Positions 20,211 through 55,757 of a stretch of 64,000 nt of DNA are shown piece after piece. Made by a program: the position numbers and the translations under genes. Position 1 is the first letter of the stretch; each line of letters begins with the position of its first letter. Location of the stretch: assembly GCF_010728325.1 (NCBI RefSeq), contig NZ_AP022570.1, forward strand, positions 5,580,001-5,644,000, written 5' to 3'. The notes beneath the pieces are model-generated. The model did not search any database and had not been told where the DNA came from. It saw only the letters and a program-made list of their open reading frames with translations. This stretch comes from Mycolicibacterium poriferae (GTDB lineage: Bacteria; Actinomycetota; Actinomycetes; Mycobacteriales; Mycobacteriaceae).

Positions 20211-21383
<1,173 letters not shown>

Positions 21384-34724: not shown

Positions 34725-34752
34725 CGGGTACCCGATCCCCAGAGGAGTATCG

Positions 34753-36288
34753 ATGACGACCTCTCCGAGAACCACTCCCGCGGTTCTCGACCGGATCGCC
34801 CGCGAGCTGCCCGACCACGACGCAGTGGTGACACCGACGCAGACGCTGACGTTCGCCGTGCTGCGCAGCCACGTCCGGCAAGCCGCCGCGGCGATGATCG
34901 ACCTGGGTGTCCAGCCCGGCGACCGGGTGGCGATTTGGTCGCCGAACACCTGGCACTGGGTGGTGGCGTGCCTGGCCACCCACTGCGCCGGTGCGGTGCT
35001 GGTCCCGTTGAACACCCGTTACACCGCCAGCGAAGCCACCGACATCCTGGCGCGAACCGATGCTCCGCTGCTGTTCGCCTCCGGTGAGTTCCTGGGCACC
35101 GACAAGGCCGCCAGCGTGGACCGTGCGCAGCTGCCCGCGCTGCGCCACATCGTGCGGATCCCGGTGGACTCCGACGACGGGACGTGGGAGGAATTCGTGG
35201 CCCGGGCCGCCAACGTCGAGCTGACCGACGTCGACGCCCGTTCCGCGGCAGTAGGCCCCGACGATGTGTCCGACATCCTGTTCACCTCCGGTACCACCGG
35301 GCGCAGTAAGGGCGTGCTCTGTGCGCACCGCCAGTCGCTCGACGCGTCGGCAGCCTGGGCGGCCTGCGGTCAGCTGTCGGAGGCCGACCGGTACCTGTGC
35401 ATCAATCCGTTCTTCCACAACTTCGGTTACAAGGCCGGAATCCTGGCCTGCCTGCAGACCGGCGCCACGCTGTTCCCCGAGTTGACGTTCGACCCCCAGG
35501 CCGCCATGCAGGCGGTGCAGCAGCACCGGATCACCGTGCTGCCCGGACCTCCGACGATCTATCAGACGCTGCTCGACCACCCCGAACGCGGGAACTATGA
35601 CTTGTCGTCGCTGCGGTTCGCGGTCACGGGTGCGGCCACCATCCCGGTCGTGCTGATCGAGCGGATGCAGAATGAGCTCGACATCGACATCGTGCTCACC
35701 GCATACGGATTGACCGAGGCCAGCGGGTTCGGCACGATGTGCCGCGCCGACGACGACGCCGTCACCGTCGCGACCACCTCGGGTCGCCCGATCGCCGACT
35801 TCGAGCTGCGCATCGGCGAGCAGGGGGAAGTGCTGCTCCGCGGACCCAACGTGATGCTGGGCTATCTCGACGACCCCGATGCCACCGCCGCGGCGATCGA
35901 CGCACACGGCTGGTTGCACACCGGCGATGTCGGTGAACTCGACGACGCGGGCAACCTGAAGATCACCGACCGCCTGAAGGACATGTACATCTGCGGTGGG
36001 TTCAACGTCTATCCCGCCGAGGTGGAACAGGTGTTGGCCCGGCTCGACGGCGTCGCCGAGGCCGCCGTGATCGGGGTCCCCGACGAACGCCTCGGCGAGG
36101 TCGGCAAGGCCTTCGTCGTCGTGCTGCCCGGAGCCGACCTGGCCGAACAGTCGGTGATCGACCACACCCGCGAACATCTCGCGAATTTCAAAATCCCCCG
36201 CTCGGTGGAGTTCATCGACGCGCTGCCGCGCAACCCCGGCGGCAAGGTCGTCAAACCCCTTCTCCGACAGCGAAGCGAAAGGGCCTGA
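34753..36288 (+). CDS. fadD3: HIP-CoA ligase FadD3
   Basis: 511 aa from ATG 34753, eight bases after AGAGGAG. ANL-superfamily acyl-CoA synthetase with the P-loop-like ILFTSGTTGRSKGVLCAHRQ, YGLTEASGFGTM, and the hinge/C-terminal DRLKDMYICGGFNVYPAEVE and NPGGKVVKP with the catalytic lysine. FadD3 activates the propionate side chain of HIP and commits rings C and D to degradation. It heads the rightward fadD3-fadE31-fadE32-fadE33-aspB operon. Confidence 0.95.
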   Translation: MTTSPRTTPAVLDRIARELPDHDAVVTPTQTLTFAVLRSHVRQAAAAMIDLGVQPGDRVAIWSPNTWHWVVACLATHCAGAVLVPLNTRYTASEATDILARTDAPLLFASGEFLGTDKAASVDRAQLPALRHIVRIPVDSDDGTWEEFVARAANVELTDVDARSAAVGPDDVSDILFTSGTTGRSKGVLCAHRQSLDASAAWAACGQLSEADRYLCINPFFHNFGYKAGILACLQTGATLFPELTFDPQAAMQAVQQHRITVLPGPPTIYQTLLDHPERGNYDLSSLRFAVTGAATIPVVLIERMQNELDIDIVLTAYGLTEASGFGTMCRADDDAVTVATTSGRPIADFELRIGEQGEVLLRGPNVMLGYLDDPDATAAAIDAHGWLHTGDVGELDDAGNLKITDRLKDMYICGGFNVYPAEVEQVLARLDGVAEAAVIGVPDERLGEVGKAFVVVLPGADLAEQSVIDHTREHLANFKIPRSVEFIDALPRNPGGKVVKPLLRQRSERA

Positions 36289-40622: not shown

Positions 40623-41018
40623 TCAGGTCAGTGCTTCGATCAGTTCTCCGACGGTGTGCGCCGACTCCAGTGGGTGTCGCAGCCGGCCCGACGGATTGAC
40701 GGTGTAGCGGTTGCGCCGGCCTTCTTTCGACTTGTCCAGGTAACCGTCGGCGATGAGGTCCGCCACGATCGCTTGGACGGCGCGCTCGGTGATGCCGATC
40801 AGCTGACTGAGTTCCCGGGCGGTCAGGGATTCCCCTTGCGCCAGACAGAGCAGCACATGGGCGTGGTTGGTCAGAAACGTCCAGGTGCGCGGCCGCTCGG
40901 CACCGACTTCCGGCAGTCGCCCGGCCGATCCGGTGCCCGCAGCGCGCCGGGTCGGCCGGTCCGTGCTCGGCGCGCGCCGCCGCGTCGTCGTCGTTCGCGT
41001 TCGCTTCGTCGCAGCCAC
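40623..41018 (-). CDS. Winged helix-turn-helix regulator, MarR-like
   Basis: 131 aa. A very basic Arg/Thr-rich N-terminus (TKRTRTTTTRRR) precedes a winged helix: NHAHVLLCLAQGESLTAREL, then ITERAVQAIVADLIADGYLD and a wing KEGRRNRYTVNP. This arrangement is common in mycobacterial MarR/ArsR-type regulators. It is the first gene of the accessory region after aspB and is convergent with it. Its target is unknown; the divergently arranged or adjacent terC and dab genes are candidates. Confidence 0.8.
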   Translation of the reverse strand: MAATKRTRTTTTRRRAPSTDRPTRRAAGTGSAGRLPEVGAERPRTWTFLTNHAHVLLCLAQGESLTARELSQLIGITERAVQAIVADLIADGYLDKSKEGRRNRYTVNPSGRLRHPLESAHTVGELIEALT

Positions 41019-41056: not shown

Positions 41057-42025
41057 TCAATCGCGGGACGCGACTCCTTTCGCATCGTCGACGGCGTCTC
41101 GGTTGCGGGTTGCCACCAGGCTCCAGCCGATCGACACCGCCAGCGTCACCACGATGACCGACAGCGTCAGTGGTATGGGCAGCTTGCCCACCGGCGTTTC
41201 CGACAGGATCAGCTTCACCCCGGCGAAGGCGAGCAGGAATGCCAGGCCGTAGTGCAGGTGGATGAACCGGCGCATCAACCCGGACAGGCAGAAATACAGA
41301 CTGCGCAGACCCAGCACGGCGAACGCGTTCGCCGTCCACACCAGGAAGGTGCTGGTGGTGATCGCCAGCACCGCGGCGACGGAGTCGATCGCGAAGATCA
41401 GATCAGTGGCTTCCACGGCGACGAGAACCACCAACAGCAGCGTCGCCACCCGCTTTCCGTCGATCCGCGTGATCAACCGGTCACCGTGGTAGTTCGGGTC
41501 GACCGGAATCACCCGACGAACCAGGCGCACCAGGAGGTTCTTCTCGGGCTGGAGATCCTCGTCGTGCTTGAAGGCCATCTTGTATGCGGTGTAGATCAGG
41601 AATCCACCGAACAGGTAGGCGGTCCAGAAGAACGCAGTGAGCAGTTCGGCGCCGACGAAGATGAACACCAGCCGGAACAGCAGTGCACCGATGACGCCCC
41701 AGAACAACACCTTGTGCTGATAACGGTCGGGAACGGCGAAGTAGGTGAAGATCAGGGCGAAGACGAACACATTGTCGACCGACAGCGCCTTCTCGATGAG
41801 ATATCCGGCGTAGTAGGTTCCTGCGACCTCGCCACCGTAGGTCCACCACAGCACCGCTCCGAAACCGAGTCCCGCGCCGATCCACAGGATCGACCACACC
41901 GCTGCCTCGCGGAATTCGATGACGTGGTTGTCGCGATGCATGAACAGGTCGATCGCCAGCATCACGACGATGGCGGTCATGACCGCGACCCACGCCCACA
42001 CCGGTACCGCCAAGGGTTCGGTCAT
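41057..42025 (-). CDS. TerC family integral membrane protein
   Basis: 322 aa from ATG 42025, with CAGGAG eight bases upstream. About eight hydrophobic helices; TerC hallmarks are IDLFMHRDNHVIEFREAAVW, the acidic YLIEKALSVDNVFVFALIF and LVAVEATDLIFAIDSVAAVL. TerC proteins are linked to metal export (manganese, calcium) and tellurite resistance; which applies here is not known. It is divergent from dabB across 104 bases, so the two may share regulation. Confidence 0.88.
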   Translation of the reverse strand: MTEPLAVPVWAWVAVMTAIVVMLAIDLFMHRDNHVIEFREAAVWSILWIGAGLGFGAVLWWTYGGEVAGTYYAGYLIEKALSVDNVFVFALIFTYFAVPDRYQHKVLFWGVIGALLFRLVFIFVGAELLTAFFWTAYLFGGFLIYTAYKMAFKHDEDLQPEKNLLVRLVRRVIPVDPNYHGDRLITRIDGKRVATLLLVVLVAVEATDLIFAIDSVAAVLAITTSTFLVWTANAFAVLGLRSLYFCLSGLMRRFIHLHYGLAFLLAFAGVKLILSETPVGKLPIPLTLSVIVVTLAVSIGWSLVATRNRDAVDDAKGVASRD

Positions 42026-42129
42026 CACTTCTCCTGACCTGCGGTTGCGCGTCGGAGAGCGGCGGGCTTTTCCGTTGTTATTTTCGCGAAGATTGACACA
42101 CGAGACACAATACACGTACTGTCCTTCGT

Positions 42130-43614
42130 ATGTTAAGCGGAATCGCGCAGGCTGCCCTGGCCACCACGGTATTGGCGCCGCTGACGGCCGCATTGCTCGC
42201 CGCGTTGCTCGGCGCACGGTGGCCCGAGCAGCTCGTGCGACTGGGTGCGGCCATCGCCTGCATCGGCTTCCTCGCCGGCGTGGGTCTGACGGCAGTACTG
42301 CTGAGCGGAACCGAAACCGTAATCGGAACTGGTGTTTTCAGCCTGCAGGTCGATCCGGTCGCCGCGATCATGGTGCTGCTGATCTTCGGGGTCAGCGCGG
42401 TCGCGCAGACCTACGCGGTGCGCTACCTGGCCGGCGACCGCCGCGGCGGTTGGTTCGCCGCGGGAGCATCGCTGCTGACCGCGAGCTCGGCGGTGATGGT
42501 GACGGCCACCGCACCCGTGGGGATCGGGGTCGGCTGGACCGGGGCCGGGATCGCGCTCTGCGCACTGCTGGCCACCTACTGGCATCTGCCCGCTGCGCGC
42601 GACGGCGTCCGCCGAACGGCCCTCGCCTTCGTCATCGGTGACGTCGCGCTGTGGTCGGCCATCGGCCTGGTCACGCTCGACGCGTCCGCCGACGGGATCG
42701 TCGCCGCGGTGGCGGCTGTCCTCATCGTCACCGCCGCGCTGTCGCGGTCCGCTCAGATACCCTTCCATCGCTGGCTGCCCGCCACCCTGGCCGCACCTAC
42801 TCCGGTGTCGGCACTGCTCCACGCGGGCGCCGTCAACGCAGGAGCGCTGCTGCTGGTGCGCCTGCACCCGGTCTACGACACCGCTGTGGCCGGCGCTCTC
42901 GCGATCATGGCGGGCACCGCCACGTTGCTCTACGGCGCCGCCGTGATGCTGGTGAAACCGGACGTCAAAGGCGCACTGGCACATTCAACGATGGCGCAGA
43001 TGGGATTCATGATTCTCACCTGCGGGCTGGGCCTCTGGGCAGCAGCGGTCATCCATCTTGTCGCCCACGGCTTCTACAAGGCCACGCTGTTCCTGTCCTC
43101 CGGCTCGGCGATCGCGGGACTGCGCCGTGACGCCGCAGTTCCCCACGACATCGCGGCAGACGGCCGAGGGCGAACTCTCGCCAGGAGCCTCTCGGTAGCA
43201 CTGCCCACCGGGGCCCTTCTGACCGCGCTCGCGGTGATCCCGGCGGCACCCGCCGACCACGCCGCCGAGTACGCCCTGCTGATCTTCGCGTGGGTCACCG
43301 GCGCGGCTGCCACCTGGGGGTGGCTGCGCCGACGCCCCGGTCTCGGTGGCGTCGCCATCGCCGCGTCCTTCCTGGTGCCCGCCGCGGTGGCCTACCTCGG
43401 CCTGATCCGGGCGGTGGGTCACTTCCTCGAACCCGCGCTCCCCGCTCCCGCGGGGCCGAGCACCACCGCCTGGGTCGTCGTCGCAGCCACGGTCACGCTG
43501 CTGACCGCGGTCGCGACAATCCGCTACAGGTCTGGCGGCCTGCACGGCGCCATCTACACCCGAGTCCTCGCCGCCGGACACGTTCCGACCACCACGACAG
43601 GAGACCATCGATGA
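42130..43614 (+). CDS. dabB: NuoL/MrpA-like proton-channel subunit of the DAB inorganic-carbon transporter
   Basis: 494 aa with about 13 transmembrane helices of the proton-conducting antiporter family. The SRSAQIPFHRWLPATLAAPT segment with the following VSALLHAGAVNAG, and the lysine/histidine helix LVAHGFYKATLFLSSGS, are diagnostic. It is not part of a complex I operon. The neighbour that overlaps its stop by ATGA is a DabA (DUF2309) protein. In DAB systems DabB couples cation flow to CO2 hydration by DabA, accumulating bicarbonate in the cytoplasm. Confidence 0.9.
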   Translation: MLSGIAQAALATTVLAPLTAALLAALLGARWPEQLVRLGAAIACIGFLAGVGLTAVLLSGTETVIGTGVFSLQVDPVAAIMVLLIFGVSAVAQTYAVRYLAGDRRGGWFAAGASLLTASSAVMVTATAPVGIGVGWTGAGIALCALLATYWHLPAARDGVRRTALAFVIGDVALWSAIGLVTLDASADGIVAAVAAVLIVTAALSRSAQIPFHRWLPATLAAPTPVSALLHAGAVNAGALLLVRLHPVYDTAVAGALAIMAGTATLLYGAAVMLVKPDVKGALAHSTMAQMGFMILTCGLGLWAAAVIHLVAHGFYKATLFLSSGSAIAGLRRDAAVPHDIAADGRGRTLARSLSVALPTGALLTALAVIPAAPADHAAEYALLIFAWVTGAAATWGWLRRRPGLGGVAIAASFLVPAAVAYLGLIRAVGHFLEPALPAPAGPSTTAWVVVAATVTLLTAVATIRYRSGGLHGAIYTRVLAAGHVPTTTTGDHR

Positions 43615-46166
43615 CCACAGTCGCAGCAGCACCGACCGCGGCGGCCCGCCGCGCACAACTACGCAGCGACGTCCGACTGGCTGCCCGGGTGGTTCCCACC
43701 CACTACCCGCTGGAGACCTTCATCGCGGTCAACCCGCTCAGCGGCATGCTCGGTATGCCGTTCGAACAGGCCATCCGCCGTGCGGGCGACCTGTACGGAG
43801 CACGAGGAACACTGCCCGAGAGCACTTTCCGTACACTGCACCACCAGGGCCGGATCACCGACGCCGACCTGGACCACGCGCTCGTGCGCCGCCACCCCAA
43901 CCTCGTCGACGAGCCGCCGGTGCTCTTGGGCGGACGGCACGTCGGCGCCACCGAACTGTTGCGCGCGGACCTCCTGAACGGGGTGGAGTACCCGAACCCG
44001 CTACGCCGGTACCGCACCCGCGCCGAGCAGTGCGCCCCTCGCGTCGCAGCGCACGTCGACACGCAGGTTGCGAAATGGTGTTCGGCCTTCTTCGGCGCGG
44101 CCACCTGGCCGATGCCGGGCCGCGACAACGGCTTCTACCACGCGTGGCGCACACTGGCCCCGAAGGACCGCACTCTGCCCCGTGCGGCGCGGACCGCCCT
44201 GGCCTCGGCCGCCGAGCGCGCCGACGACGCAGTGTTGTCCGCGCTCGACGCGCTCGAGATCGACGATGACAACCGGATCACCTACCTGCAGGCGCATCTG
44301 ACCAAGCTGCCGGGTTGGGCCGCGCACGTGCAGTGGTGCGGGGACCGGGCAGCGGGCATCGACCTCGTCGACTACCTGGCGATGCGTCTGCTGTACGAGA
44401 CCGCGCTGTTGCCCGACGAGCACCCGGGACCGGTTGCACCCGCAGAGCGGCCCGCCCCCCCGACCGCGCGAGATCGACTCGCCCATCTGCTGGATCTGTG
44501 GAACATCACCCCGGGGGACGAGAGCGAACTGACCGCCGCAGCCCGCATCCTGGCACTGCTGCCGGTCACCACGCGGGAGATGATCTGGCAGAACGCTTTC
44601 GAGGGCGCCTACCGGGACCGCCTCCTGACAGACCTGGCAGCCAACCCGCCGGCCGTGATCGAGCCGGCGCACACCCACCTCGTCACCTGCATCGACACCC
44701 GGTCCGAAGGATTGCGTAGGCACCTGGAGACGTTGCAGGGCTACGACACCTACGGCTTCGCCGGCTTCTTCGCGGTCGCCATCAGGTACACCGGCCTGCT
44801 CGGCGGTGCATCCGCCGACCTGTGCCCGGTGCTGATCTCACCCGCCCACGAGATCAACGAGAACGCCGATCAACCCGAGTCGGCTGCGGTGTGCCGCCAC
44901 ATCCGCGGCAACCAGCAACTGGCGGGAGCAGAGTCGGCGTTCCACGCCGCCAAAGACGCGATGGTCGCGCCCTACGCGCTGGCCGAGGCCGCCGGCTGGA
45001 TCGCCGGGCCGCTGGCCGCCGCGAAGACCTTCATGCCCGCCGCCGCGGGCCGGTTACGCCGCCGGTTGCACGATCTGGTCACGCCCCCAGCTCGGACACA
45101 CGTCGACGTCACCGATATGCCGCTGCACGAACAGATCCTGTTCGCCGAGGTGATGCTCACCGCGATCGGACTGACGCGCGGGTTCGGCCGACTCATCGTC
45201 CTGTGTGGCCACGGCAGCACCACGGAGAACAACCCCTACCAGGCCTCTCTGGACTGCGGCGCCTGTGGTGGTCAGGCAGGCGGACCGAACGCCCGAACCG
45301 CCGCACGGGTCCTCAACCGAGCCGAAGTCCGAGAAGGATTGCGCGAGCGCGGAATCGACATTCCGGAGCACACCGTCGCCGTCGCCGCGCTGCACGACAC
45401 CACGACCGACGTGGTGACGATCCTGGACACCCACCTGGTTCCCACCGACCATCATCTCGACGTCGCCCGGCTCACCGCCGACCTGCGCCGCGCCGGTGCC
45501 GCGCTCGCCGCCGAGCGGACCGCGACGCTTCCCGGCGCGACGGGGCGCCGGGGAGCGGCCCGCGGTGTCGCCCGACGTTCGGTGGACTGGGCGCAGGTCT
45601 ATCCCGAATGGGGCCTGGCCGGCAACGCTGCCATGGTCATCGCTCCGCGCCCGGTAACCCGTGGAATCGACCTGCAGCGACGGGCATTCCTGCACTCCTA
45701 CGACGCAGCGGTCGACCCGGAGGGCGCGGCACTGGAGACGATTCTCACCGCACCGCTGGTCGTCGCGCACTGGATCAACTCGCAGTACTACTTCTCCACC
45801 GTCGCGCCCGACGTCTTCGGCGCGGGGTCGAAGACCATCCACAACGTGGTCGGCGGGTCAGGTGTCATCGCCGGTCACACCGGCGACCTGAAGCTCGGGC
45901 TGCCCGCGCAATCGGTCGCTGTCGGCGATCAGCTGGTGCACGAACCGCAACGGCTCCTGGCCGTCATCGAGGCCCCGCTGGAACTGATCGACACCGTGAT
46001 CGCCCGCAACCCGATCCTGCAGCAACTCTTCGGAAACGGGTGGGTCAGCGTGGCCGCCCGTGCACAGCCTGGCGAGCCATGGCAGCGCTGGACCCGGTCG
46101 GGCTGGCGACTGTGGCTCGACGACAACTGTCCTGCAAATGATCTGACGGAGGTAACACTGGGATGA
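43611..46166 (+). CDS. dabA: DabA, DUF2309/UPF0753 zinc subunit of the DAB inorganic-carbon transporter
   Basis: 851 aa from ATG 43611. The beta-carbonic-anhydrase-like zinc residues are all present: C360 and D362 in LVTCIDTRSEGLRRHLE, H534 in VLCGHGSTTENN, and C549 in LDCGACGGQAGGPNA. The spacing (2, 172, 15) is nearly that of the characterised Halothiobacillus protein. DabA hydrates CO2 to bicarbonate in an energised, one-way manner with DabB. It overlaps dabB and the PII-like gene by four bases each, giving a tight three-gene operon. Confidence 0.93.
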   Translation: MTTVAAAPTAAARRAQLRSDVRLAARVVPTHYPLETFIAVNPLSGMLGMPFEQAIRRAGDLYGARGTLPESTFRTLHHQGRITDADLDHALVRRHPNLVDEPPVLLGGRHVGATELLRADLLNGVEYPNPLRRYRTRAEQCAPRVAAHVDTQVAKWCSAFFGAATWPMPGRDNGFYHAWRTLAPKDRTLPRAARTALASAAERADDAVLSALDALEIDDDNRITYLQAHLTKLPGWAAHVQWCGDRAAGIDLVDYLAMRLLYETALLPDEHPGPVAPAERPAPPTARDRLAHLLDLWNITPGDESELTAAARILALLPVTTREMIWQNAFEGAYRDRLLTDLAANPPAVIEPAHTHLVTCIDTRSEGLRRHLETLQGYDTYGFAGFFAVAIRYTGLLGGASADLCPVLISPAHEINENADQPESAAVCRHIRGNQQLAGAESAFHAAKDAMVAPYALAEAAGWIAGPLAAAKTFMPAAAGRLRRRLHDLVTPPARTHVDVTDMPLHEQILFAEVMLTAIGLTRGFGRLIVLCGHGSTTENNPYQASLDCGACGGQAGGPNARTAARVLNRAEVREGLRERGIDIPEHTVAVAALHDTTTDVVTILDTHLVPTDHHLDVARLTADLRRAGAALAAERTATLPGATGRRGAARGVARRSVDWAQVYPEWGLAGNAAMVIAPRPVTRGIDLQRRAFLHSYDAAVDPEGAALETILTAPLVVAHWINSQYYFSTVAPDVFGAGSKTIHNVVGGSGVIAGHTGDLKLGLPAQSVAVGDQLVHEPQRLLAVIEAPLELIDTVIARNPILQQLFGNGWVSVAARAQPGEPWQRWTRSGWRLWLDDNCPANDLTEVTLG

Positions 46167-46483
46167 CAACCGCCCTGACGAAGATGACGAAAGTCGAGGT
46201 CGTGGTGGCCGGCAAAGACGCCCCGGCGGTGCGTGAACTCATCGGCTCCGTCGGCGCCACCGGCTTCACCAGCCTCTCGGGTGTGTCGGGCCTCGGCCAC
46301 CACGGCTATCACCAGGGCCGGCTGCTGTTCAACCAGCAGGCCACCCTCGAACTCATCATCACCGTCGTGCCCCAGGAGAGGGCCGACGCGCTCCTGGCCG
46401 GGCTCCGGCCGCTGCTCGACGCATCCTCCGGGGTGATGTTCGTGACCGAAACCTATGTCAGTCGCCCCGAGTACTTCAGCTGA
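46163..46483 (+). CDS. PII-like signalling protein linked to the DAB transporter
   Basis: 106 aa. Ferredoxin-like PII fold: MTKVEVVVAGKDAPAVRELI, a flexible T-loop region GVSGLGHHGYHQGRLLFNQQ and a C-terminal VMFVTETYVSRPEYF strand. The canonical uridylylation tyrosine context of GlnB is not present, so this is a PII-like rather than a nitrogen-sensing PII. PII-like genes next to bicarbonate transporters are known to sense nucleotides or bicarbonate status; a role in gating DabAB is inferred from the four-base overlap with dabA. Confidence 0.8.
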   Translation: MTTALTKMTKVEVVVAGKDAPAVRELIGSVGATGFTSLSGVSGLGHHGYHQGRLLFNQQATLELIITVVPQERADALLAGLRPLLDASSGVMFVTETYVSRPEYFS

Positions 46484-46513
46484 CCCGAGATGAAAGGACT
46501 CTCAATGAAGATG

Positions 46514-47722
46514 TCAAGCCGCCGATTCGGTGATCTGGGGTGAGTGGGGTTGCCAGGTGCGGTTGTCGCGGATGAGTGCGTAGAGGACGTTGGTGCGGCG
46601 TCTGGCCAGGCACATCGTGGCTTGGATGGGCCGTTTGCCTTCGTCGCGTTTGCGCTGGTAGTAGGTCTGAGAGTGCGGGTCGCAGCGGATGGCGGTCAGG
46701 GCGGACATGTACATCACCCGGCGCAGTCGTCTGCTGTAGCGCTGCGGAGTGTGCAGCCGTCCGGTGCGTTTCCCCGAATCGCGGGGAACGGGAGCCAGTC
46801 CGGCCCAGGAGGCGAGTTGGTCGGCCGAGCCAATCAGCGCCGGGTCGCCGACGGCGGCGAGGAATTCGGCGCCGAGTCGGAAGCCGATGCCGGGCATGCT
46901 GGTGATCACCTCGGCGAGTGGATGGCGGCGAAATCGGCCCTCGATGTCAGCGTCAGTGGCTTTGATGCGGTCATCGAGGGAGATCACCCCCTGCGCCAGT
47001 TCGGCGACCAGCGCGGCGGCGACCTCTTCGCCGGGCAGGCGCACGGTCTGGGTCTTCGCGGCGGTGACAGCGGTCTCGGCGATGGTGGATGCATTGCGCA
47101 CCCCGGCCTCGGTCAGGGTCTTCGTGATGCGCGACAGTCCGCTCTGCCGAATGGCTTTCGGTCGCTGGTAGCGCGACAACAGAACCACCCAACCACGGTC
47201 CTGGGTCAGTTGAGCCGCTCGCTCAAGCGCCGGGCACACCGCCACCAGTTGCTGACGCAGTCGGTTGATGGTGCGGGTCCGATCAGCCACCAGGTCCGCG
47301 CGGTGAGCGGTCAGCATCCGCAGTTCGGTGACCAGGTCATCGTGGGGATGCAACACCGGCAGATCGGTGCCGCGCATGCGCGACTGATCGGCGATCACCC
47401 GGGCGTCTTTGGCGTCGGTCTTGGCTTCGCCACCGCGGTAGGTTCCCGAGGCCTGCCATACCGCGCGGCCAGCCAGGTAGCGCACCGACTTGCCGGCGTC
47501 GGCCAACACCGTCAACAACAGGCTGGCATACACCGTGGTCAGGTCGACCGCCCAGGACACCTGCTCTGCCATGGCGCCGATCTCGGCCACCAGTGCCCGG
47601 ATGGGTTGCTCGTCGTTGACCAGCTTGCGCGAGAGCTTCACCGCGCCGGTGTCGTCGACGACTACCACCCAGTGATGTTCCTTGCCGACATCCACACCAG
47701 CCCACAACTGGCTCATTGTCAT
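46514..47722 (-). CDS. IS110-family transposase (DEDD recombinase)
   Basis: 402 aa. The N-terminal RuvC-like DEDD domain begins GVDVGKEHHWVVVVD, with KTDAKDARVIADQSRMRG. The C-terminal Tnp2 domain has ITSMPGIGFRLGAEFLAAVG, ADQLASWAGLAPVPRDSGKR and the serine-containing loop typical of IS110 enzymes. The frame is intact. Start ATG 47722 (ATG 47716 is also possible). Related mycobacterial elements include IS900, IS901 and IS1110. These enzymes use an RNA encoded in the element's non-coding end to choose target and donor sites. Confidence 0.93.
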   Translation of the reverse strand: MTMSQLWAGVDVGKEHHWVVVVDDTGAVKLSRKLVNDEQPIRALVAEIGAMAEQVSWAVDLTTVYASLLLTVLADAGKSVRYLAGRAVWQASGTYRGGEAKTDAKDARVIADQSRMRGTDLPVLHPHDDLVTELRMLTAHRADLVADRTRTINRLRQQLVAVCPALERAAQLTQDRGWVVLLSRYQRPKAIRQSGLSRITKTLTEAGVRNASTIAETAVTAAKTQTVRLPGEEVAAALVAELAQGVISLDDRIKATDADIEGRFRRHPLAEVITSMPGIGFRLGAEFLAAVGDPALIGSADQLASWAGLAPVPRDSGKRTGRLHTPQRYSRRLRRVMYMSALTAIRCDPHSQTYYQRKRDEGKRPIQATMCLARRRTNVLYALIRDNRTWQPHSPQITESAA

Positions 47723-47965
47723 CGATCCTCTTTTCGCTTGTCTACCAACATGATCCCCACGGACGACCCCGCCGGCATTTCCTTAAACAAGCGATCAGAT
47801 CGCAGATCTCAATCAGCGGCCAGAGAAGTCCAGGCAAGTCGGGCGGCCAGTCCTTTCAAGCCGCACTCGAAAGCCGGCAAAGACCACATCAGCCTCACCC
47901 GACCCACCCGGGTCGCAGAACAACGTAACAACACGACGCAACTGCAACTACGAACTTAAGGGAAC
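47723..47965 (-). ncRNA. Candidate bridge RNA of the IS110 element
   Basis: The region upstream of the transposase has no gene but contains perfect short hairpins, including GCGAT-CAG-ATCGC (47791-47803), CTTTC/GAAAG near 47852-47873 and CGACCC-ACCC-GGGTCG (47900-47915). IS110-group elements encode their bridge RNA here, on the transposase strand. The exact RNA ends and guide loops cannot be fixed by eye. Confidence 0.45.
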
Positions 47966-47972
47966 ACCGCAC

Positions 47973-48563
47973 ATGTCCAATCCGCAAGAGACCTGGAACC
48001 GACTCCGCGCCGGAGCCGACGGACTGCACGCTCCGAACGACACCGACATGGATCGACCCGTCGCCGCGGTGTTGCGCTGCGCGGACGCCAAGATGGCCGG
48101 GGCCGGCGTATTCGGCCAGCCTGCAGGGTCACTGGTCGACCTGAGTTCGTGGGGCCTGACTGTGGACACCAGCGTGCTGGCCGGGGTCGACTTCGCCGTC
48201 GAAACCGCGGAGGTGCCGCTCATCGTCGTGCTCGGACACGACGACTGTGCGGCGATACGCGCCGCGGTCAAGGCGTGGAATCACGCCGAACTGCCCGACG
48301 GTGCGATGCGCGCCGCGGTCGAGGGAGTGCTCATGTCGCTGGTGGGTCGCGGCGCATCCGTGGAATCCCATGCGCATGTCGCGGCCGCGCATGCGGTCGA
48401 AACCGGTCTGTCGCTGCTCAAGCGTTCTCCCGCGCTGACGCATCGGGTGGACAACGGGACGTGCGGAATCGTCTGCGCCACCTACGACGGGGCGGTTCTC
48501 CGGGTGCATGCGACCATGGGGGATGTCAGGGACGCCAGCACTGCGCTCGTGGAATGCGTGTGA
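47973..48563 (+). CDS. Beta-carbonic anhydrase-like protein
   Basis: 196 aa. The zinc ligands of the beta class are present: C36 in VLRCADAKM, H89 and C92 in VVLGHDDCAAIRAAV. The catalytic Asp-Arg dyad position reads CADAK, so the aspartate (D38) is kept and the arginine is lysine (K40). The middle region (FGQPAGSLVDLSSWG) diverges from the usual VVRNAGN. Its genomic place after dabA and the PII-like gene suggests it belonged to the same inorganic-carbon operon before the IS110 insertion. AAGGGAA, probably IS-derived, now serves as the ribosome binding site. Confidence 0.8.
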   Translation: MSNPQETWNRLRAGADGLHAPNDTDMDRPVAAVLRCADAKMAGAGVFGQPAGSLVDLSSWGLTVDTSVLAGVDFAVETAEVPLIVVLGHDDCAAIRAAVKAWNHAELPDGAMRAAVEGVLMSLVGRGASVESHAHVAAAHAVETGLSLLKRSPALTHRVDNGTCGIVCATYDGAVLRVHATMGDVRDASTALVECV

Positions 48564-48585: not shown

Positions 48586-49863
48586 TCAGCCCATGCCGGA
48601 CGACGAACGTCGCCGACGTGAGATCGCGTCCACACTGGCGGCCAACAGCAGCACACCGCCGGTGACCAGGAAGTTGATGTAGGACGACTGGTTGAGCAGG
48701 CCCAGCCCGTTGGCGATGGTGGCCACGACCACGCCGCCGATCACGGCGTCGATGGCCCGGCCTCTGCCGCCGAACAGGCTGGTACCGCCGATGACCGCGG
48801 CGCCGACGGCATAGAGCAGCGTGTTGCCCGCCCCTGAGGACGCCGACACCTTGCCCGCATAGGACGCGGCGATGATTCCGCTCAGCGCCGCCAACGACGA
48901 ACAGACCACGAACACCGAAACCCGGATCCGGTCAACCGAGATCCCCGCCCGGCGGGCCGCCTCGGCATTGCCGCCGACGGCATAGATGTGGCGTCCGTAG
49001 GAAGTCCGGGTGAGCACCACGGTCGCGACGACGAGGAGGACCAGAACCAGCGGCAGCACGTAGGGAATGCCACGGATCTCCACGCTCGGGTTGACGCTGC
49101 GGTTGACATTGAGCACCACTGTCACACCGAAAACGACTGCGGCTATGGCTGATACGCGCGCCAGGATCACCCCGCTCGGCGGGTGCGAAAGCCGCAGCGC
49201 CTTCTTGCGCCGAAGCTGGAAGGCCTCCACGCCGGCGTAGCCCAGAACCACTGCCAGCGCGAGCGCCCATCCGACTGGCACGGACAGGTTCTCGATGGTC
49301 AGACCGCGGATCACCGGATCGTCCACTCGGACCGAGCCCCCCTCGCCGATCAGCTTGAGCGTCACCCCCTGCAGTCCGAGGAAGAACGCCAATGTCACGA
49401 CGAACGAGGGAATCCCGAGGCTGGCTCTGAGTACGCCGATGGCCAGCCCGATCAATGCGCCGCACGCCGTGCCGACGAGGATCGCGACCCACCACGGCCA
49501 GCTCAAGTTCACCACGGTCAGCGCCATGGCACAGGCCGCGACTCCGCCGGCCACCCCGGCCGACAGGTCGATGTCGCCGAGCAGCAGCACGAACACCAGA
49601 CCCATGGCCAGCACACAGATGGCGCCGGCCTGGGTGATCAGGTTGGCCAGGTTCAACGCGGACAGGAAGCGGTCATTGGCGAGTCCGAAGACGACGAACA
49701 GCACGACAAGGCCGAGAATCGCAGGCAGCGAGCCCATGTCACCGCCACGCACACGTCGCCAATACCCGACCATCGCGCTACGGAGTGTCTGTTGTTCGCC
49801 GAAGTCGCCGGCGAAGTCCCTGTCAGCGAGGCCGACAGCAGGTCGAGATCGGAAAGTTGTCAT
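48586..49863 (-). CDS. xylH: Xylose/sugar ABC transporter permease
   Basis: 425 aa from ATG 49863 with GAGGA seven bases upstream; a GTG at 49914 overlapping the ATPase stop is the alternative. Ten or more hydrophobic helices of the ribose/xylose (BPD_transp_2) permease type, with GDIDLSAGVAGGVAACAMAL and YAVGGNAEAARRAGISVDRI. A long basic cytoplasmic loop lies near residues 225-240 (QLRRKKALRL). It is the last gene of the xylA-xylF-xylG-xylH unit and is convergent with the carbonic anhydrase. Confidence 0.9.
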   Translation of the reverse strand: MTTFRSRPAVGLADRDFAGDFGEQQTLRSAMVGYWRRVRGGDMGSLPAILGLVVLFVVFGLANDRFLSALNLANLITQAGAICVLAMGLVFVLLLGDIDLSAGVAGGVAACAMALTVVNLSWPWWVAILVGTACGALIGLAIGVLRASLGIPSFVVTLAFFLGLQGVTLKLIGEGGSVRVDDPVIRGLTIENLSVPVGWALALAVVLGYAGVEAFQLRRKKALRLSHPPSGVILARVSAIAAVVFGVTVVLNVNRSVNPSVEIRGIPYVLPLVLVLLVVATVVLTRTSYGRHIYAVGGNAEAARRAGISVDRIRVSVFVVCSSLAALSGIIAASYAGKVSASSGAGNTLLYAVGAAVIGGTSLFGGRGRAIDAVIGGVVVATIANGLGLLNQSSYINFLVTGGVLLLAASVDAISRRRRSSSGMG

Positions 49864-49910
49864 CACGGGTTCCTCATGTGTCTTGTCACGGTTGTGCACG
49901 GCGCCGGCGC

Positions 49911-50690
49911 TCACACCGATTCGGTCAGCGAGGCCAACCCGAGGTCACCCGACCGGCCGGCGGTGATCAGTTCCACGACCTGGGCGTGACTCACCTCCGA
50001 AGCCGCGACGTCGGCGGCGACCCGTCCGAGGTACAGCGCACATATCCGGTCGGCCACGGCGAAGACGTCGGACATGTTGTGCGAGATCAGAACCACTCCG
50101 AGTCCTTGATCGGCCAGTCGGCGGACCAGATCGATCACCTGGCGGGTCTGCGCCACCCCCAGCGCGGCGGTGGGTTCGTCGAGTAGAACGACCTTGGAGT
50201 TCCACAGCACCGACTTGGCGATCGCCACGGTCTGGCGTTGCCCGCCGGACAGGCTCGACACCGTCTGGCGTACCGACTTGACGGTGCGCACCGACAGCGA
50301 CGCCAGCGCATCCCGCGCCATTGTCTCCATGCGGGCCTCGTCGAGCAGACCTCTGCTTTTGAGCTCTCGGCCGAGGAACATGTTCTCCACGATGTCGAGG
50401 TTGTCGCAGAGTGCCAGGTCCTGGTAGACGACCTCGACGCCCAGCGCCGAGACGTCGTTGGGGCTGCGGACGGTCACCGGACGCCCCTCGAACAGGAAGG
50501 CGCCGCTGTCGATGTGATAGATGCCGGCGATCGTCTTGACGAGGGTCGACTTGCCTGCCCCGTTGTCGCCGACCAGGGCGGTCACCTGCCCGGGATACAC
50601 CTGGAAGTCGACGTCATGCAGCACGTGGACGACACCGAAACTCTTGTTCACTCCGCGTAGTTCGAGGATCGGCTGCGCGTCGGCGGTCAT
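49911..50690 (-). CDS. xylG: Sugar ABC transporter ATP-binding protein
   Basis: 259 aa. Walker A VGDNGAGKSTLVKTIAG, signature SSLSGGQRQTVAIAK, Walker B KVVLLDEPTAALG and the switch histidine in VLISHNMSDVF. It has one ABC domain, half the size of enterobacterial XylG/RbsA, as in many actinobacterial sugar importers, so it probably forms a homodimer. It lies between xylF (6-base gap) and xylH. Confidence 0.92.
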   Translation of the reverse strand: MTADAQPILELRGVNKSFGVVHVLHDVDFQVYPGQVTALVGDNGAGKSTLVKTIAGIYHIDSGAFLFEGRPVTVRSPNDVSALGVEVVYQDLALCDNLDIVENMFLGRELKSRGLLDEARMETMARDALASLSVRTVKSVRQTVSSLSGGQRQTVAIAKSVLWNSKVVLLDEPTAALGVAQTRQVIDLVRRLADQGLGVVLISHNMSDVFAVADRICALYLGRVAADVAASEVSHAQVVELITAGRSGDLGLASLTESV

Positions 50691-50696
50691 CGGAGA

Positions 50697-51761
50697 TCAG
50701 GCTCCTGCCTCGGTGCACAGCGACGCGAACTGACCCGAACACACCTCATCCTTGGACTGCCCGCCGTCGTCGAACACCACGTTGAGGTTGTCCTTGGTGA
50801 TGGATTTCGGGGTCAGCAGCACCGAGGGGACGTCACGGCCGCCGGTGTCGTCACGTGAGGTGCTCGTCGTGTTCGGCTGCTCACCGTTGGCCAGCGCGAT
50901 GGCCACATCGGCGAGCGCGTTGGCTTCCTCGGTCGCGGACTTGTAGACAGTCATGCACTGCGATCCGGCCAGGATGTTCTGCAATCCCTCGACCGTCGCG
51001 TCCTGGCCGGTGACCGGTACCTGGCCGGCGCGCTTGTTCTTCTCGAGAATCGAGATGACCGAACCGGCGAGACCGTCGTTGGCGGCGTACACCCCGTCGA
51101 CGCGACCGTCGGCCGCGGTGTAGAGCTGCTCGAAGATCGTCACCGCTTTGTCGTTGTCCCAGTCCGGCACCGACTGCTCACCGACGATCGTGACGGTGGG
51201 AGTCGCGTCGATCACCGAGTGCGCGCCGTCGCTGAACAGTGTGGCGTTGTTGTCGGTCGGAGAACCGTTGAGGAACACCACGTTCGCCGGCCGGCCGCCG
51301 AGGCAGTCCACCAGACCCTGGCCCTGCAACTCCCCGACCTTCGTGTTGTCGAACGACACGTAGACATCGGCGGAGCCACCCAACGTCAGGCGGTCGTAGT
51401 CGATGGTCTTCACGCCCTGGGTCGCGGCCTTCTGCTGAATCGATGCCCCACTGTCGGAATCGAGGTTGACGATGGCCAGGACGGTCACTCCATCAGCGAT
51501 CATCCCGTCGGCGATGGTGGCCATCGTGTCCGCCGAACCCTCGGCATTCTGGATCGTGTAATCGACCCCGGCGTCCTGGAAGGCGGCTTCCAAGGCGGGA
51601 CGGTCCTTGCTCTCCCAGCGCACCGACGATTTGGTGTCGGGAAGAATGACCCCGACCTTGCCGGCGCCGCTGTCCGAGGAGTCCGAACCCGAACTGCATG
51701 CGGTCAGAGCCAGTCCCACGCCGATGATCACGCCAACTGAAAGTATGCGAAGTCTTCTCAC
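50697..51761 (-). CDS. xylF: Xylose-binding lipoprotein of the ABC transporter
   Basis: 354 aa from GTG 51761, with GGGAGGG upstream. A lipoprotein signal with lipobox ALTAC (cysteine about residue 21) precedes a periplasmic-binding-protein type I domain: KVGVILPDTKSSVRWESKDR, VIADGVTVLAIVNLDSDSG-like repeats and DGVYAANDGLAGSVISILEK. The ligand is inferred as D-xylose from the xylA, xylB and xylR neighbours and from similarity to XylF-type proteins. Confidence 0.9.
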   Translation of the reverse strand: MRRLRILSVGVIIGVGLALTACSSGSDSSDSGAGKVGVILPDTKSSVRWESKDRPALEAAFQDAGVDYTIQNAEGSADTMATIADGMIADGVTVLAIVNLDSDSGASIQQKAATQGVKTIDYDRLTLGGSADVYVSFDNTKVGELQGQGLVDCLGGRPANVVFLNGSPTDNNATLFSDGAHSVIDATPTVTIVGEQSVPDWDNDKAVTIFEQLYTAADGRVDGVYAANDGLAGSVISILEKNKRAGQVPVTGQDATVEGLQNILAGSQCMTVYKSATEEANALADVAIALANGEQPNTTSTSRDDTGGRDVPSVLLTPKSITKDNLNVVFDDGGQSKDEVCSGQFASLCTEAGA

Positions 51762-51817
51762 GAGTTCCCTCCCGGTCGATGATTTGGTTGGTGGTCGATA
51801 TCGGTCCGCATGCCCCG

Positions 51818-53038
51818 TCACCTGGCTCCCATCAGATGTTCGAGAGCCAACTGTTGGAGTGCGACGAATCCGCAACCCTTTCCGCCGAAGTAGGCGTCCG
51901 TGTCGAATTGTTCGTAGGCGGTGGGGTCGGCGATCAGATCGGCGTAGGACTCGCCTGCGTCGAGGGTGGGCCGGCGCAACTCGTCCACCTTGGCCGCGGC
52001 CATCGCGGCCAATACCTCAGGATCGGCGCGGAATGCGGCCGCGCGCTGCCGTAACAGCAGGTACATCCGCATGTTGGCCGCAGCGGAGGCCCAGACACCG
52101 TCGGCATCCTCGGTGCGGCTGGGCTTGTAGTCGAAGTGTCGCGGCCCGTCGTAGGCAGGCCCGCCGCCGGGGGCACCGTGTTCGAGGAGGTCCACCAGCG
52201 CGAAGGCATTGGCCAGATCACCATGGCCGAACACCAGGTCCTGGTCGAACTTGATCCCGCGCTGACCGTTGAGGTCGATGTGAAACAGCTTGTCGCTGTA
52301 AAGCGCCTGGCTGATCCCGTGCATGAAGTTCAGCCCGGCCATCTGCTCGTGACCAGTCTCGGGATTGACCCCGACCATGTCGGGATGAGCGAGGGTCTCG
52401 ATGAAGGCCAGCGCATGTCCCACCGTGGGCAGCAGAATGTCGCCTCGGGGTTCGTTGGGCTTGGGTTCGATGGCGAAGCGGATTCCGATACCTTGATCGA
52501 TCACGTACTCGCACAACAGATCAACCGCTTCTCGATACCGTTCGAGCGCTGCTCGCACGTCCTTGGCCGAGTCGTATTCGCTTCCTTCACGACCACCCCA
52601 CATGACAAAGGTGTGCGCTCCGAGTTCTGCGGCCAGGTCGATGTTGCGCAACACCTTGCGGAGGGCGAACCGACGCACTGCACGGTCGTTGCTGGTGAAC
52701 CCGCCGTCCTTGAAGGCCGGCTGGGTGAACAGGTTGGTCGTCACCATCGGCACGACCAGACCCGTCGCGTTCAATGCCGAGGACAGTCGGTCGATCATCC
52801 GGCGCCGCTCGGAATCCGAACTTCCGAAAGCAAAGAGGTCGTCGTCGTGCAGTGTGACACCGTATGCACCGAGATCCGCGAGCCGTTCCACGGCCTCGGT
52901 CACATCCAGCGCCGGCCGCGTCGCGACGCCGAAAGGATCATTGCCTTGCCAACCGATCGTCCACAGACCGAAGGAGAACTTGTCGGACCGGCGTGGGATG
53001 AGGGAGTCCGACGCGGCGCGGGATTCCAGGACGGTCAT
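51818..53038 (-). CDS. xylA: Xylose isomerase
   Basis: 406 aa. Class I xylose isomerase TIM barrel of the actinobacterial short type: [13 protein letters not shown], the catalytic histidine in [14 protein letters not shown], the metal-site [12 protein letters not shown] and [20 protein letters not shown]. It interconverts D-xylose and D-xylulose using two divalent metals. It is the first gene of the leftward xylAFGH unit and divergent from xylR. Confidence 0.95.
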
Positions 53039-53100
53039 CGCGGATGCTCCTCAGAGATCATGAGCTGTCGGTGCGGGCAGCATTGCCCAGACCATTTGGT

Positions 53101-53121
53101 TTTGTTCTCCGTCCGAACATA
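53101..53121. promoter_or_regulatory. Candidate XylR operator
   Basis: TnTGTTC-N7-GAACAnA is an inverted repeat in the 128-bp gap between the divergent xylA and xylR-xylB units. It is placed to control both promoters. The regulator is inferred from position and from the ROK family's operator type. Confidence 0.6.
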
Positions 53122-53166
53122 AGATGTGGCCTGCGACACTGTCAAGGCCGAATGCAAGGGGTGGTT

Positions 53167-54360
53167 GTGGCGTTGAAGCCGACCGGAAATGGCAGCTCGG
53201 CCCGAGTCGGGACCAACACCGATGACGTCCGCCGGCGCAATTTGTCGACCGTGTTGACCCTGGTTCACCGGCATCGCGCCCTGACCCGCGCCGAACTCAC
53301 CCGGCACACCGGGCTGTCCCGCTCGACCACCAAGGATCTCGTCGAACAATTGGTCGCGGCCGGACTCGTCGAAGAATCGCCTGCCGCGTCGCCGTCCCAG
53401 GTGGGCAGACCGAGTCCGGTCGTGCGGCCGGGACACAAGGTGCTGGCCGCGGCAGTGACACCGGAAGTCGACGCGGTCACCGTCGGCCTGGTGGGCATGG
53501 GTGGCGCAGTCCTGCGAGTGCTGCGCTGTGCCACCGATCGGGCGCCCACCCCTGAGGACACCGTGGCGATCGTCGCGGAGGCGCTTGCTGAGATCCGCCG
53601 CACGTTGAGCGACGCGCAGTCCATCACTGCCGTGGGAGTCGCGGTCCCCGGTCTGGTACACAGCCGGCAGTCAGCCGTTCAACTGGCACCCAATCTCGAT
53701 TGGCATGACGCCGAAATCGGTCCGATGCTCAGCGCCGCAACGGAATTGCCCGTGTACGCCGCCAACGATGCCAACGCCGGGGCGATCGCCGAGCATCTGT
53801 TCGGTAATCATCACAGCGCCGAGCACCTCATCTATGTCAATGGCGGCCCGAGCGGCATCGGCGCCGGCTTCGTGGTGGCCGGCGGCCTGCTCGAAGGACT
53901 GGCCGGTTATGCCGGCGAATTGGGCCACACCTTTGTGGGGGGCACCGGCGAGTGCCACTGTGGCAGCATCGGCTGCTTGGAGACCGAGGTGACCCACGCT
54001 CCGCTCGCCCGCCTGTTGTCCCAATTGGACGACGAGTCAAGCGGACCCACCGAACAGAGCTCGGCTGAACCGGATCACGACGAGCGGCGGGTACTCAGCG
54101 GGCAGACTCGGGCCTTGGCGATCGCCCTGGGCAATGCGGTCAACATGCTCAACCCCGGCCTGATCGTGCTGGGTGGCTTCCTGCGGGTCTTCCCCCGATA
54201 CGCCGCAGATGCTCTGCGCGCCGAGCTGGCCCGCCACAGCATGACCGCCCCTCGGCAACTGGTCCGTGTCGTTCCCGCCACGCTGGGGGCTGACACCCTG
54301 ATGATCGGCGCCGCCGAACTGGCATTTGGTCCCGTGCTCGCCGACCCCGGAAGGAACTGA
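53167..54360 (+). CDS. xylR: ROK-family transcriptional repressor, xylose-responsive type
   Basis: 397 aa from GTG 53167, six bases after AAGGGG; ATG 53152 and GTG 53161 are in-frame alternatives. N-terminal winged helix ([20 protein letters not shown], then [19 protein letters not shown]). The ROK sugar-kinase-like domain has [15 protein letters not shown], the [14 protein letters not shown] motif and the zinc cluster [10 protein letters not shown]. It probably represses xylAFGH and itself in the absence of xylose. xylB follows two bases after the stop. Confidence 0.9.
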
Positions 54361-54362
54361 CG

Positions 54363-55757
54363 ATGCCCCTTGTCGCCGGTATCGATTCGTCCACACAGTC
54401 ATGCAAAGTCTTGGTGTGCGATGCGGACAGCGGGGAGATCCTGCGCTCGGCGTCCGCGCCGCATCCCGATGGCACCGAGGTCCATCCCAACCGTTGGTGG
54501 GAGGCGCTGGAGCAGGCCATCAGCGCGGCCGGTGGCATCGCCGATGTGGCGGCAGTCTCGGTCGGCGCCCAACAGCACGGCATGGTCTGCCTGGACTCCC
54601 GCGGCCGAGTCGTTCGAGACGCGTTGCTGTGGAACGACACCCGGTCTGCTCACGCGGCCGCGGAACTGACCGACGAACTCGGAGGCCCGCAGGCGTGGGC
54701 GCGTCGCACCGGGGTGGTGCCGGTCGCGGCTGTCACAGCGACGAAGCTGCGCTGGTTGGCCGACCATGAACCACACCACGCCGACGCGACCGCGGCGGTG
54801 TGCCTGCCCCACGACTGGCTGACCTGGCGGCTGAGTGGCTCCTCGGATATCGCCGATCTGCGCACCGATCGCAGCGACGCGAGCGGAACCGGGTACTTCT
54901 CCGCGGAGAGCAACACCGTCCAGACCGACCTGTTGGAACTGGCCTTCCGCGGGCGGCGCCCCGTGGTTCCGCAGGTCCTCGGCCCCCGGGAATCAGCCGG
55001 CACCGCCGCCCACGGGGCGCTGCTGGGTGCCGGCGCAGGCGACAACGCCGCTGCCGCTTTGGGATTGGGGGCAGTTCCCGGTGACTGCATCGTTTCCCTG
55101 GGCACTTCCGGGGTGGTGAGCGCGGTGGCCACGACCGCTCCACACGACGCCGACGGCCTCGTCGCGGGTTTCGCTGATGCGACGGGACGTCAGTTGCCCC
55201 TGGTATGCACTCTCAACGGCGCCCCGGTACTGGCCGCCGTGGCGGCGATGCTGCGGGTGGACTTCACCGAGTTCGACCGCCTCGCGCTGTCCGCACCCCC
55301 GGGCGCCGACGGGATGGTGTTGATTCCCTATTTCGACGGCGAGCGTTCACCCAACCTGCCAGACGCTTCCGGCGCGCTGCACGGCGTCACCTCCCGGAAC
55401 ATGACGTCGGCGAACATCGCCCGTGCCGCGGTGGAGGGCCTGCTCAGTTCGATGGCGTTCTGCGTCGACACCATCGGCGGTCAAGGAGTCGACGTCGAAC
55501 GAATCATGTTGGTCGGAGGTGGCGCCCGATCCGAGGCCGTTCGGCAGATTGCGCCCGCGGTGCTGGGGCTCGACGTTCACGTGCCGCGGCCGACCGAGTA
55601 CGTCGCACTCGGAGCGGCTCGTCAGGCGGCCTGGGTTCTCGGCGGTCAGTCCTCCCCTCCGTCGTGGACGGTGGGCAGCCCAGCCGTGTACACGGCCGAC
55701 TCAACGCCGCACGTACGGGAGCGCTACGACTCCGCACAGAAGCTGACGTTGAGGTGA
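54363..55757 (+). CDS. xylB: Xylulokinase
   Basis: 464 aa. FGGY carbohydrate kinase: [17 protein letters not shown] phosphate-1 motif, [23 protein letters not shown], and the ATP-binding [15 protein letters not shown] and [17 protein letters not shown]. It phosphorylates D-xylulose to D-xylulose 5-phosphate, which enters the pentose phosphate pathway. It is cotranscribed with xylR. Confidence 0.94.

Follow-up and report, generated by a model that had tools for sequence, protein, structure and literature searches.

A conserved mycobacterial operon joins a predicted DabB-DabA inorganic carbon pump to a CPII-type PII protein and a probable pseudo-carbonic anhydrase

How a DAB-type inorganic carbon pump is regulated, and what a heterotroph with ordinary carbonic anhydrases (CAs) gains from such a pump, are two questions touched by a locus of Mycolicibacterium poriferae. 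DAB in heterotrophs is already known (PMC6689103; PMC13144422, both in excerpt), and the 2026 structure paper on DAB2 counts the way in which futile cycling is prevented by regulation among the key DAB questions (PMC13144422, accessible excerpts). The window analysed here is the whole stretch of 64,000 nucleotides, positions 5580001-5644000 of a 5.93 Mb genome, and the following of its features are needed first:

42130..43614, plus strand, dabB, membrane subunit (NuoL-like; PF00361/PF00662)
43611..46166, plus strand, dabA, cytoplasmic CA-like subunit (PF10070, 805.8 bits)
46163..46483, plus strand, CPII-type PII protein (PF00543, 63.8 bits)
46499..47960, IS110 insertion splitting the operon (ends approximate, from by-eye comparison with the uninterrupted intergenic region of relative L086)
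46514..47722, minus strand, IS110 transposase (PF01548 and PF02371; NF033542, 246 bits)
47973..48563, plus strand, degenerate beta-CA-like protein, here called pseudo-CA (PF00484, 61.7 bits)

The explanation that we prefer, with a probability of slightly under 0.6, is a four-gene module, split in this genome by IS110, in which a likely DabB-DabA CO2-to-bicarbonate pump is accompanied by a CPII-type PII protein, its predicted gate, and a likely non-catalytic pseudo-CA. DabB-DabA would hydrate CO2 to bicarbonate using the proton motive force; the PII protein would gate the pump via its flexible, highly conserved T-loop, responding to adenylates and bicarbonate; the pseudo-CA would act structurally or regulatorily, without catalysis; and heterotrophic carboxylases would use the pump-made bicarbonate at low CO2.

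An earlier note on this DNA, made from the letters alone, had described an ATGA overlap of dabB and dabA, a DabA retaining the zinc-site residues C360, D362, H534 and C549, and a PII-like gene overlapping dabA, and all three observations hold: the ATGA overlap is found at the dabB/dabA junction and again at the dabA/PII junction (PII starts at 46163, dabA ends at 46166), and the four residues are kept together with the dyad residue R364. The best PDB match of DabA is DabA2 (9rd0_A, E 1.3e-114), and the five zinc-site and dyad residues are invariant in the aligned DabAs of other actinobacteria (12/12) and of mycobacteria (31/31, hand-picked complete sequences from a total of 45). When DabB is aligned to DabB2 (9rd0_B), window residues S227, H231, K280, S286, H309, H313 and K317 correspond to S256, H260, K310, S316, H339, H343 and K347 of Halothiobacillus neapolitanus (Hn) and are invariant in all 15 aligned sequences; Ser/His/Lys path residues of this NuoL type are described as important in DAB2 (PMC13144422, accessible excerpts). 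Two sequence marks of DAB/DAC hydratases are seen here, namely an adjoining NuoL-like DabB with the proton-path residues and a DabA with a Cys-His-Cys zinc site and an Asp-Arg dyad. A third mark is the finger-motif Glu (Hn E444), which HMMER pairs with window K448. A replacement of this proton-path Glu444 by Lys448 throughout the clade was rejected as a probable alignment artefact in view of an intermediate DabA (L163); since this protein aligns FTFVESTG with LAEAAGW, E459, nearly invariant in the clade, is the likelier equivalent of Hn E444.

By analogy with the work on DAB2 of H. neapolitanus, from which both the hydration reaction and its energy coupling are carried over, DabBA likely hydrates CO2 to bicarbonate driven by the proton motive force. 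A cation-coupled bicarbonate importer resembling MpsAB, instead of a vectorial CO2 hydratase, is a distinctly unlikely reading of the same two genes. Symport of Na+ and bicarbonate has been proposed for the MpsAB system of Staphylococcus aureus, but the DabA zinc site and Asp-Arg dyad are invariant here, DabB keeps its NuoL-type proton-path residues, and the best solved DabA match belongs to DAB2, for which sodium is probably not required (PMC13144422, accessible excerpts).

DabA was found in 45 of 198 same-genus genomes, the window genome included, and regions of up to 18.7 kb around the dab copies were compared from the other 44. PII adjoins dabA in 42 of these 44 relatives, and the CA gene then follows on the same contig in 41; the exceptions are a locus at a contig edge (G139), a locus whose contig ends inside PII with the CA on another contig (G032) and a decayed dabA without PII or pseudo-CA (G074). 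The dabB-dabA gap is -4 in 41/42 loci and dabA overlaps PII in 38/42 (window included), and identity to the window proteins across relatives is 71-90% for PII and 59-67% for DabA. The gene order dabB-dabA-PII-CA recurs across the genus far beyond chance, and the ancestral unit comprises these four genes. With a pseudo-CA profile (A2), 44 proteins from 43 genomes scored 264-338 bits, the CanB-type group following from 184.5 bits down; this places a pseudo-CA in 43/45 DabA-positive versus 0/153 DabA-negative genomes, co-occurrence counts that ignore kinship among the genomes. Consequently, 43 sampled mycobacterial species genomes contain a pump accompanied by two closely linked proteins, the first of a recognised small-molecule sensor type and the second a CA relative stripped of its dyad. 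All four genes have dN/dS well below 1; in nine pairs the values were 0.17-0.33 for DabA, 0.07-0.30 for DabB, 0.00-0.40 for PII and 0.06-0.27 for the pseudo-CA, the last indicating purifying selection (stop-to-stop frames of common length with the first 10% removed, which may include some upstream sequence).

Beyond the genus, a phylum sample of 346 genomes has DabA in 21 and this PII in six (two of them of this genus), directly 3' of dabA in every case; as 15 of the 21 DabA-positive genomes are without it, this PII is not a general DAB partner. A scan of named genomes returned 64 loci, mostly from Mycobacterium and Mycolicibacterium (M. gordonae, M. szulgai, M. chubuense, M. iranicum and others), with further loci in Rhodococcus, Amorphoplanes, Dactylosporangium, Geodermatophilus and Solirubrobacterales. 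The non-mycobacterial loci contain dabB-dabA-PII, the PII of L148 being only a fragment at a contig end. A CA gene was found at none of eight non-mycobacterial CPII loci (L129, L132, L133, L134, L145, L146, L147 and L148) and at none of four loci of further genomes outside the class (L159-L162), and because all 12 are without it the CA-like gene looks like a mycobacterial addition.

The gap between PII and CA is -4 to 63 bp in the 41 relatives with both genes on one contig, compared with 1489 bp in the window genome, which carries a single full-length copy of this IS110; the DEDD and Transposase_20 domains that mark the IS110 family are both found in its transposase. No insert is present at this position in Mycobacterium sp. 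PO1, which among the named relatives is the closest (PII 99%, DabA 92%, CA 95% identical). Given the short gap in relatives, the uninterrupted PO1 locus and the single copy, the simplest reading is that IS110 recently entered an older four-gene operon. The position given in the earlier note for the CA gene, just beyond the element, is right, but the gene does not merely lie beyond it: the element split the operon. In this genome the CA gene may no longer be coupled to the operon, and the module might even be decaying here, with the CA cut off and the whole heading for loss. The element between PII and CA would fit such an outcome, as would G074, which lost PII and the pseudo-CA and has a broken dabA, and G165, where dabA is in two pieces. 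It is nonetheless improbable, as all four genes are open in the window genome, dN/dS against PO1 is 0.04-0.27, and the insertion has left, as judged by eye, an AAGGG sequence resembling a ribosome site ahead of the CA gene.

By sequence, the best PDB match of the PII protein is the CPII of Thiomonas intermedia (E 3.4e-18), a PII protein from a carboxysome locus and reportedly the subject of a paper by Wheatley and others in 2016. CPII is also the best fold match, bicarbonate-bound forms included, at approximately 36% identity, with SbtB lower in the fold-match ranking. The window protein is CPII-like but not a carboxysome CPII, because the genome has no RuBisCO large subunit. Mean column conservation is 0.96 for residues 36-60, the T-loop region, compared with 0.80 for 8-35, 0.82 for 61-89 and 0.94 for 90-106, and the AlphaFold model is least certain at residues 45-50 and 53-58, both within 36-60, suggesting a conserved flexible loop as expected for a T-loop that contacts a partner. 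Eight residues of this loop (G43, G45, H46, G48, G52, L54, F56 and N57) are also kept in 11 non-mycobacterial PII copies. The specific likeness to CPII makes gating of DabBA plausible by analogy with CPII and with the SbtA-SbtB pair, and there is a precedent in the abolition of SbtA uptake by co-expression of SbtB (PMC8438413, in excerpt). Counting against the PII protein as pump gate are its dN/dS values of 0.38-0.40 in two of the nine pairs.

The fourth gene of the unit is where our reading departs most from the earlier note, which had assigned it a catalytic part in CO2 supply. For an active beta-CA, the zinc ligands are in place in the window protein (C36, H89, C92), but the Asp-Arg dyad is not, D38 being paired with K40 at the catalytic Arg position, and the pocket motif carries S58 and W60. 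Across 72 distinct DAB-linked copies (copies identical over the last 120 residues removed beforehand), the Cys-His-Cys zinc triad is kept in 67, a zinc Cys being missing from the other five, and the Asp in 70. The dyad Arg is kept in five of the 72 and the Gly following the second Cys in four; the pocket Arg has become Ser in 69, and the Ala two residues on has become Trp in 71. The active-site Gln is kept in 65, and zinc triad, Asp and Arg are all present in four. In a database search, the best 120 of 1268 proteins, partly the same proteins as the 72 copies, have the Arg in 1/120 and the Trp in 120/120. Ordinary residues, Arg included, were found in the CanB-type proteins whose residues were examined, these being the canonical CAs encoded upstream of dab in one clade (11/11 distinct) and the window genome's own CanB-type CA.

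The AlphaFold model of the pseudo-CA (pLDDT 88.7) has a complete beta-CA fold with Rv3588c (2a5v, TM 0.84) as its top Foldseek match, and the N-terminal W8, L11 and G14 are common to CanB, whose N-terminal helix in this region packs on the partner subunit. As the catalytic Arg is lost nearly throughout the family, the protein is probably a non-catalytic pseudoenzyme with a structural or regulatory role. Loss of the Arg predicts inactivity without proving it, because four of the 72 copies keep triad, Asp and Arg, the window Lys is basic, the Gln is mostly kept and Rv1284 is an active beta-CA that lacks another canonical residue (PMC13144422, accessible excerpts). An ordinary enzyme was rejected on the Arg and pocket Trp counts. 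That the fourth gene nevertheless encodes an active CA, making the locus a redundant CO2/bicarbonate supply unit, is unlikely: the retained zinc triad and Asp, the fold match to Rv3588c and the Lys at the former Arg position of the window protein speak for activity, but the dyad Arg is rare in both samples, the Ser and Trp of the pocket are nearly universal, five copies are without a zinc Cys and the genome already has a CanB-type CA. A role as carbonyl-sulfide hydrolase was also considered, as a conjecture. What persists of the complete supply unit with its own regulator that had been proposed is the DAB pump and its co-translated PII as a conserved unit, without the catalytic CA. Naming sources label these proteins 'carbonic anhydrase' almost always, with one NCBI name 'hypothetical protein', and on our reading the label would need correcting.

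A pump in these bacteria would not act in a CA-free cytosol. CA-family genes are present in 197/198 same-genus genomes, and all 43 genomes with a pseudo-CA contain a second, lower-scoring CanB-type match, on which grounds DAB as a substitute for a missing CA was rejected. Since CA-family genes are nearly universal, an active pump would face dehydration of its product. A tentative idea, less probable than not by a good way, is that the pseudo-CA is dedicated to antagonising CA. With the operon switched on, this inactive CanB paralogue would form mixed pairs with subunits of canonical CAs, or else cap DabA, and so silence cytosolic CA. If true, pump-made bicarbonate would not revert to CO2 and the PII protein would be the energy and bicarbonate gate, and the old problem of a bicarbonate pump working amid abundant carbonic anhydrase would be solved.

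Three further features lie upstream of dabB:

40623..41018, minus strand, small winged-HTH (MarR-like) protein, candidate operon regulator (PF12802)
41057..42025, minus strand, TerC/Alx-family membrane protein, its gene flanked by the HTH gene and dabB (TIGR03718, 394 bits; start by eye)
42093..42132, plus strand, leaderless-type promoter of dabB (-35 TTGACA at 42093-42098, -10 TACTGT at 42117-42122)

The promoter has an 18-nt spacer with a conserved ACACG block, then 7 nt from the -10 element to the ATG, a geometry that predicts a leaderless dabB transcript. A search pattern of TTGACA (one mismatch allowed), 18 nt, TANNNT, 7 nt and ATG found the promoter at this one fixed 40-nt spacing, other spacings being allowed, in 91 of 101 loci (two overlapping locus sets in which many genomes occur twice), giving 63 distinct sequences. 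The hexamers are fixed by the search itself, so that only the single spacing and the other positions count as evidence; among the latter, G at -31 is present in 63/63 sequences, A-C-G at -19 to -17 in 52, 53 and 62, and T-C-G at -7 to -5 in 61, 63 and 61. The ten loci in which the pattern went unmatched are L060, L075, L108, L114 and six of the seven non-mycobacterial ones, and a pattern derived from the promoter, with up to three mismatches allowed, has a single match in the 5.93 Mb genome. The HTH protein would be placed to control the operon at this promoter: its gene is present in 44/45 DabA-positive versus 10/153 DabA-negative genomes (Fisher p 4e-33, kinship ignored), and the window genome has no close paralogue of it (next match E 0.0085). 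Of the 101 loci, 61 have it upstream of dabB and 28 downstream, and none was found at the other 12; in seven of nine regions fetched from the ten DabA-negative genomes that have it, it lies near terC. These downstream and missing cases, together with the DabA-negative genomes, weaken the case for an exclusive DAB regulator; the HTH protein may serve terC instead, which occurs at some dab loci only, a looser association, and its dab role is a lead only.

What the bicarbonate is used for can be narrowed by genome content. DUF2309 (DabA), nuoL and PII/SbtB-type genes were reported together in alpha-carboxysome loci in 2015 (PMC4633670, in excerpt), and RuBisCO is present in 28/198 mycobacterial genomes, both of which could suggest that the operon concentrates CO2 for mycobacterial autotrophy by the Calvin cycle. 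RuBisCO, however, occurs in 6/45 DabA-positive versus 22/153 DabA-negative genomes (p=1.0) and is absent from the window genome, so this role was rejected and is in our estimate extremely improbable. The lack of association makes a heterotrophic role most likely, and the unit neither assists a Calvin cycle nor replaces an absent CA. The earlier note had also placed the operon in a sterol-degrading context, and the window does contain sterol genes (one for a steroid thiolase at 20220-21383 and one for FadD3 at 34720-36288, each above NCBIfam cut-offs), but a link of these genes to dab is not supported. Of the sterol-side and sugar-transport genes in the flanks, 11 were sought in 45 same-genus regions reaching about 8 kb to each side of dabA (contig ends shorten some), counting matches of >50% identity over >150 residues, and none was found. 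Matches to seven of the 11 came from the closest relative, L086, only, whose region stops short of the other four, and a functional sterol linkage was rejected. The likely use is supply of bicarbonate to ordinary carboxylases when CO2 is scarce, and the suggestion that it feeds anaplerotic carboxylases is reasonable.

DAB pumps and PII genes beside them are already known, and what look new are the partnership with a degenerate CA, the four-gene module of heterotrophs and its conserved leaderless-type promoter; among the matches listed from open-licence PMC papers, no description of a degenerate CA partner was found. In clade B of the 2017 COGNAT study, nuoL-ybcC (COG3002) operons carry PII on their 3' side and have the same dabB-dabA-PII order (PMC5700660, in excerpt). 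The terms 'carbonic' and 'mycobacteri' are absent from the text of that study, and neither an HTH gene of the window type nor its promoter appears in the accessible part. DAB2 of H. neapolitanus (PDB 9rd0; PMC13144422, accessible excerpts) has both subunits in common with the window operon, along with the zinc triad, the Asp-Arg dyad and the proton path of DabB, but the window genome lacks RuBisCO and its operon adds PII and the pseudo-CA; the term PII is absent from the main text of the DAB2 paper. With CPII of T. intermedia (PDB 5d4n, 5d4o, 5d4p) the likeness rests on sequence and fold, the window genome differing in its lack of RuBisCO. In SbtA-SbtB of cyanobacteria a PII-like protein is also paired with inorganic-carbon uptake, although the transporter differs. 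CanB/Rv3588c is the closest solved relative of the pseudo-CA in fold and sequence and shares W8, L11 and G14, but in the pseudo-CA Arg55 is lost, Arg73 is Ser, Ala75 is Trp and Gly108 is mostly lost. MpsAB of S. aureus is likewise a DAB homologue of a heterotroph, required for growth in atmospheric CO2 in a species tabulated without CA homologues (PMC6689103, in excerpt), whereas the mycobacterial dab genes occur where CA-family genes are near-universal and come with PII and a pseudo-CA added.

In one clade of the fetched loci (L062-L069, L074, L075), a gene for a canonical CanB-type carbonic anhydrase lies upstream of dabB on the minus strand, in the opposite orientation, at a distance of ~1 kb in most of the clade and ~5 kb in L068. 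The DAB-linked carbonic-anhydrase-like protein that is predicted to be non-catalytic (pseudo-CA) may have originated by duplication of this CanB-type gene. The pseudo-CA gene is itself present as a tandem pair in L068:

L068:10932-11540, pseudo-CA gene, one of the tandem pair
L068:11767-12375, pseudo-CA gene, the other of the tandem pair

These two genes are unlike each other at active-site positions, and one of them is missing the second zinc Cys.

Decayed copies of dabA were found in two genomes of the same-genus sample. The gene is in two pieces in G165 (L074/L149), where the PII and CA genes are still there, and in G074 (L075) both PII and pseudo-CA have also been lost. Among the PII proteins encoded 3' of dabA (alignment A1), 29 of the 42 members also match DUF190 (PF02641), weakly. 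One contig with the typical mycobacterial dab locus (L091) bears the label of an Acidobacteria MAG and is probably misbinned.

The small winged-HTH gene, the candidate dab regulator, lies near terC and away from dab in seven of the nine fetched regions from genomes lacking DabA and in G079 (L164-L167, L170-L173), which suggests that TerC-HTH is a pair whose existence is independent of dab. Other neighbours of dab are:

window 48586-55757, apparent sugar-uptake operon, directed toward the CA gene from its downstream side
L070 and L071, extra NuoL-like membrane proteins (29-35% to DabB), encoded on the minus strand ~1.3-6 kb before dabB on its upstream side

The genes of the former, with names given by ORF reading rather than family search, would encode an ABC permease, ATPase, binding protein, xylose isomerase-like protein, ROK regulator and xylulokinase-like protein. 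The NuoL-like proteins perhaps belong to another complex-I-like or antiporter cluster.

In L061, L062 and L064, one clade that putatively represents M. persicum, M. innocens and M. attenuatum types, an ATG positioned for a leaderless start begins a short ORF upstream of dabB. By-eye reading places its TGA stop in overlap with the GTG start of dabB, an arrangement that resembles a leader peptide.
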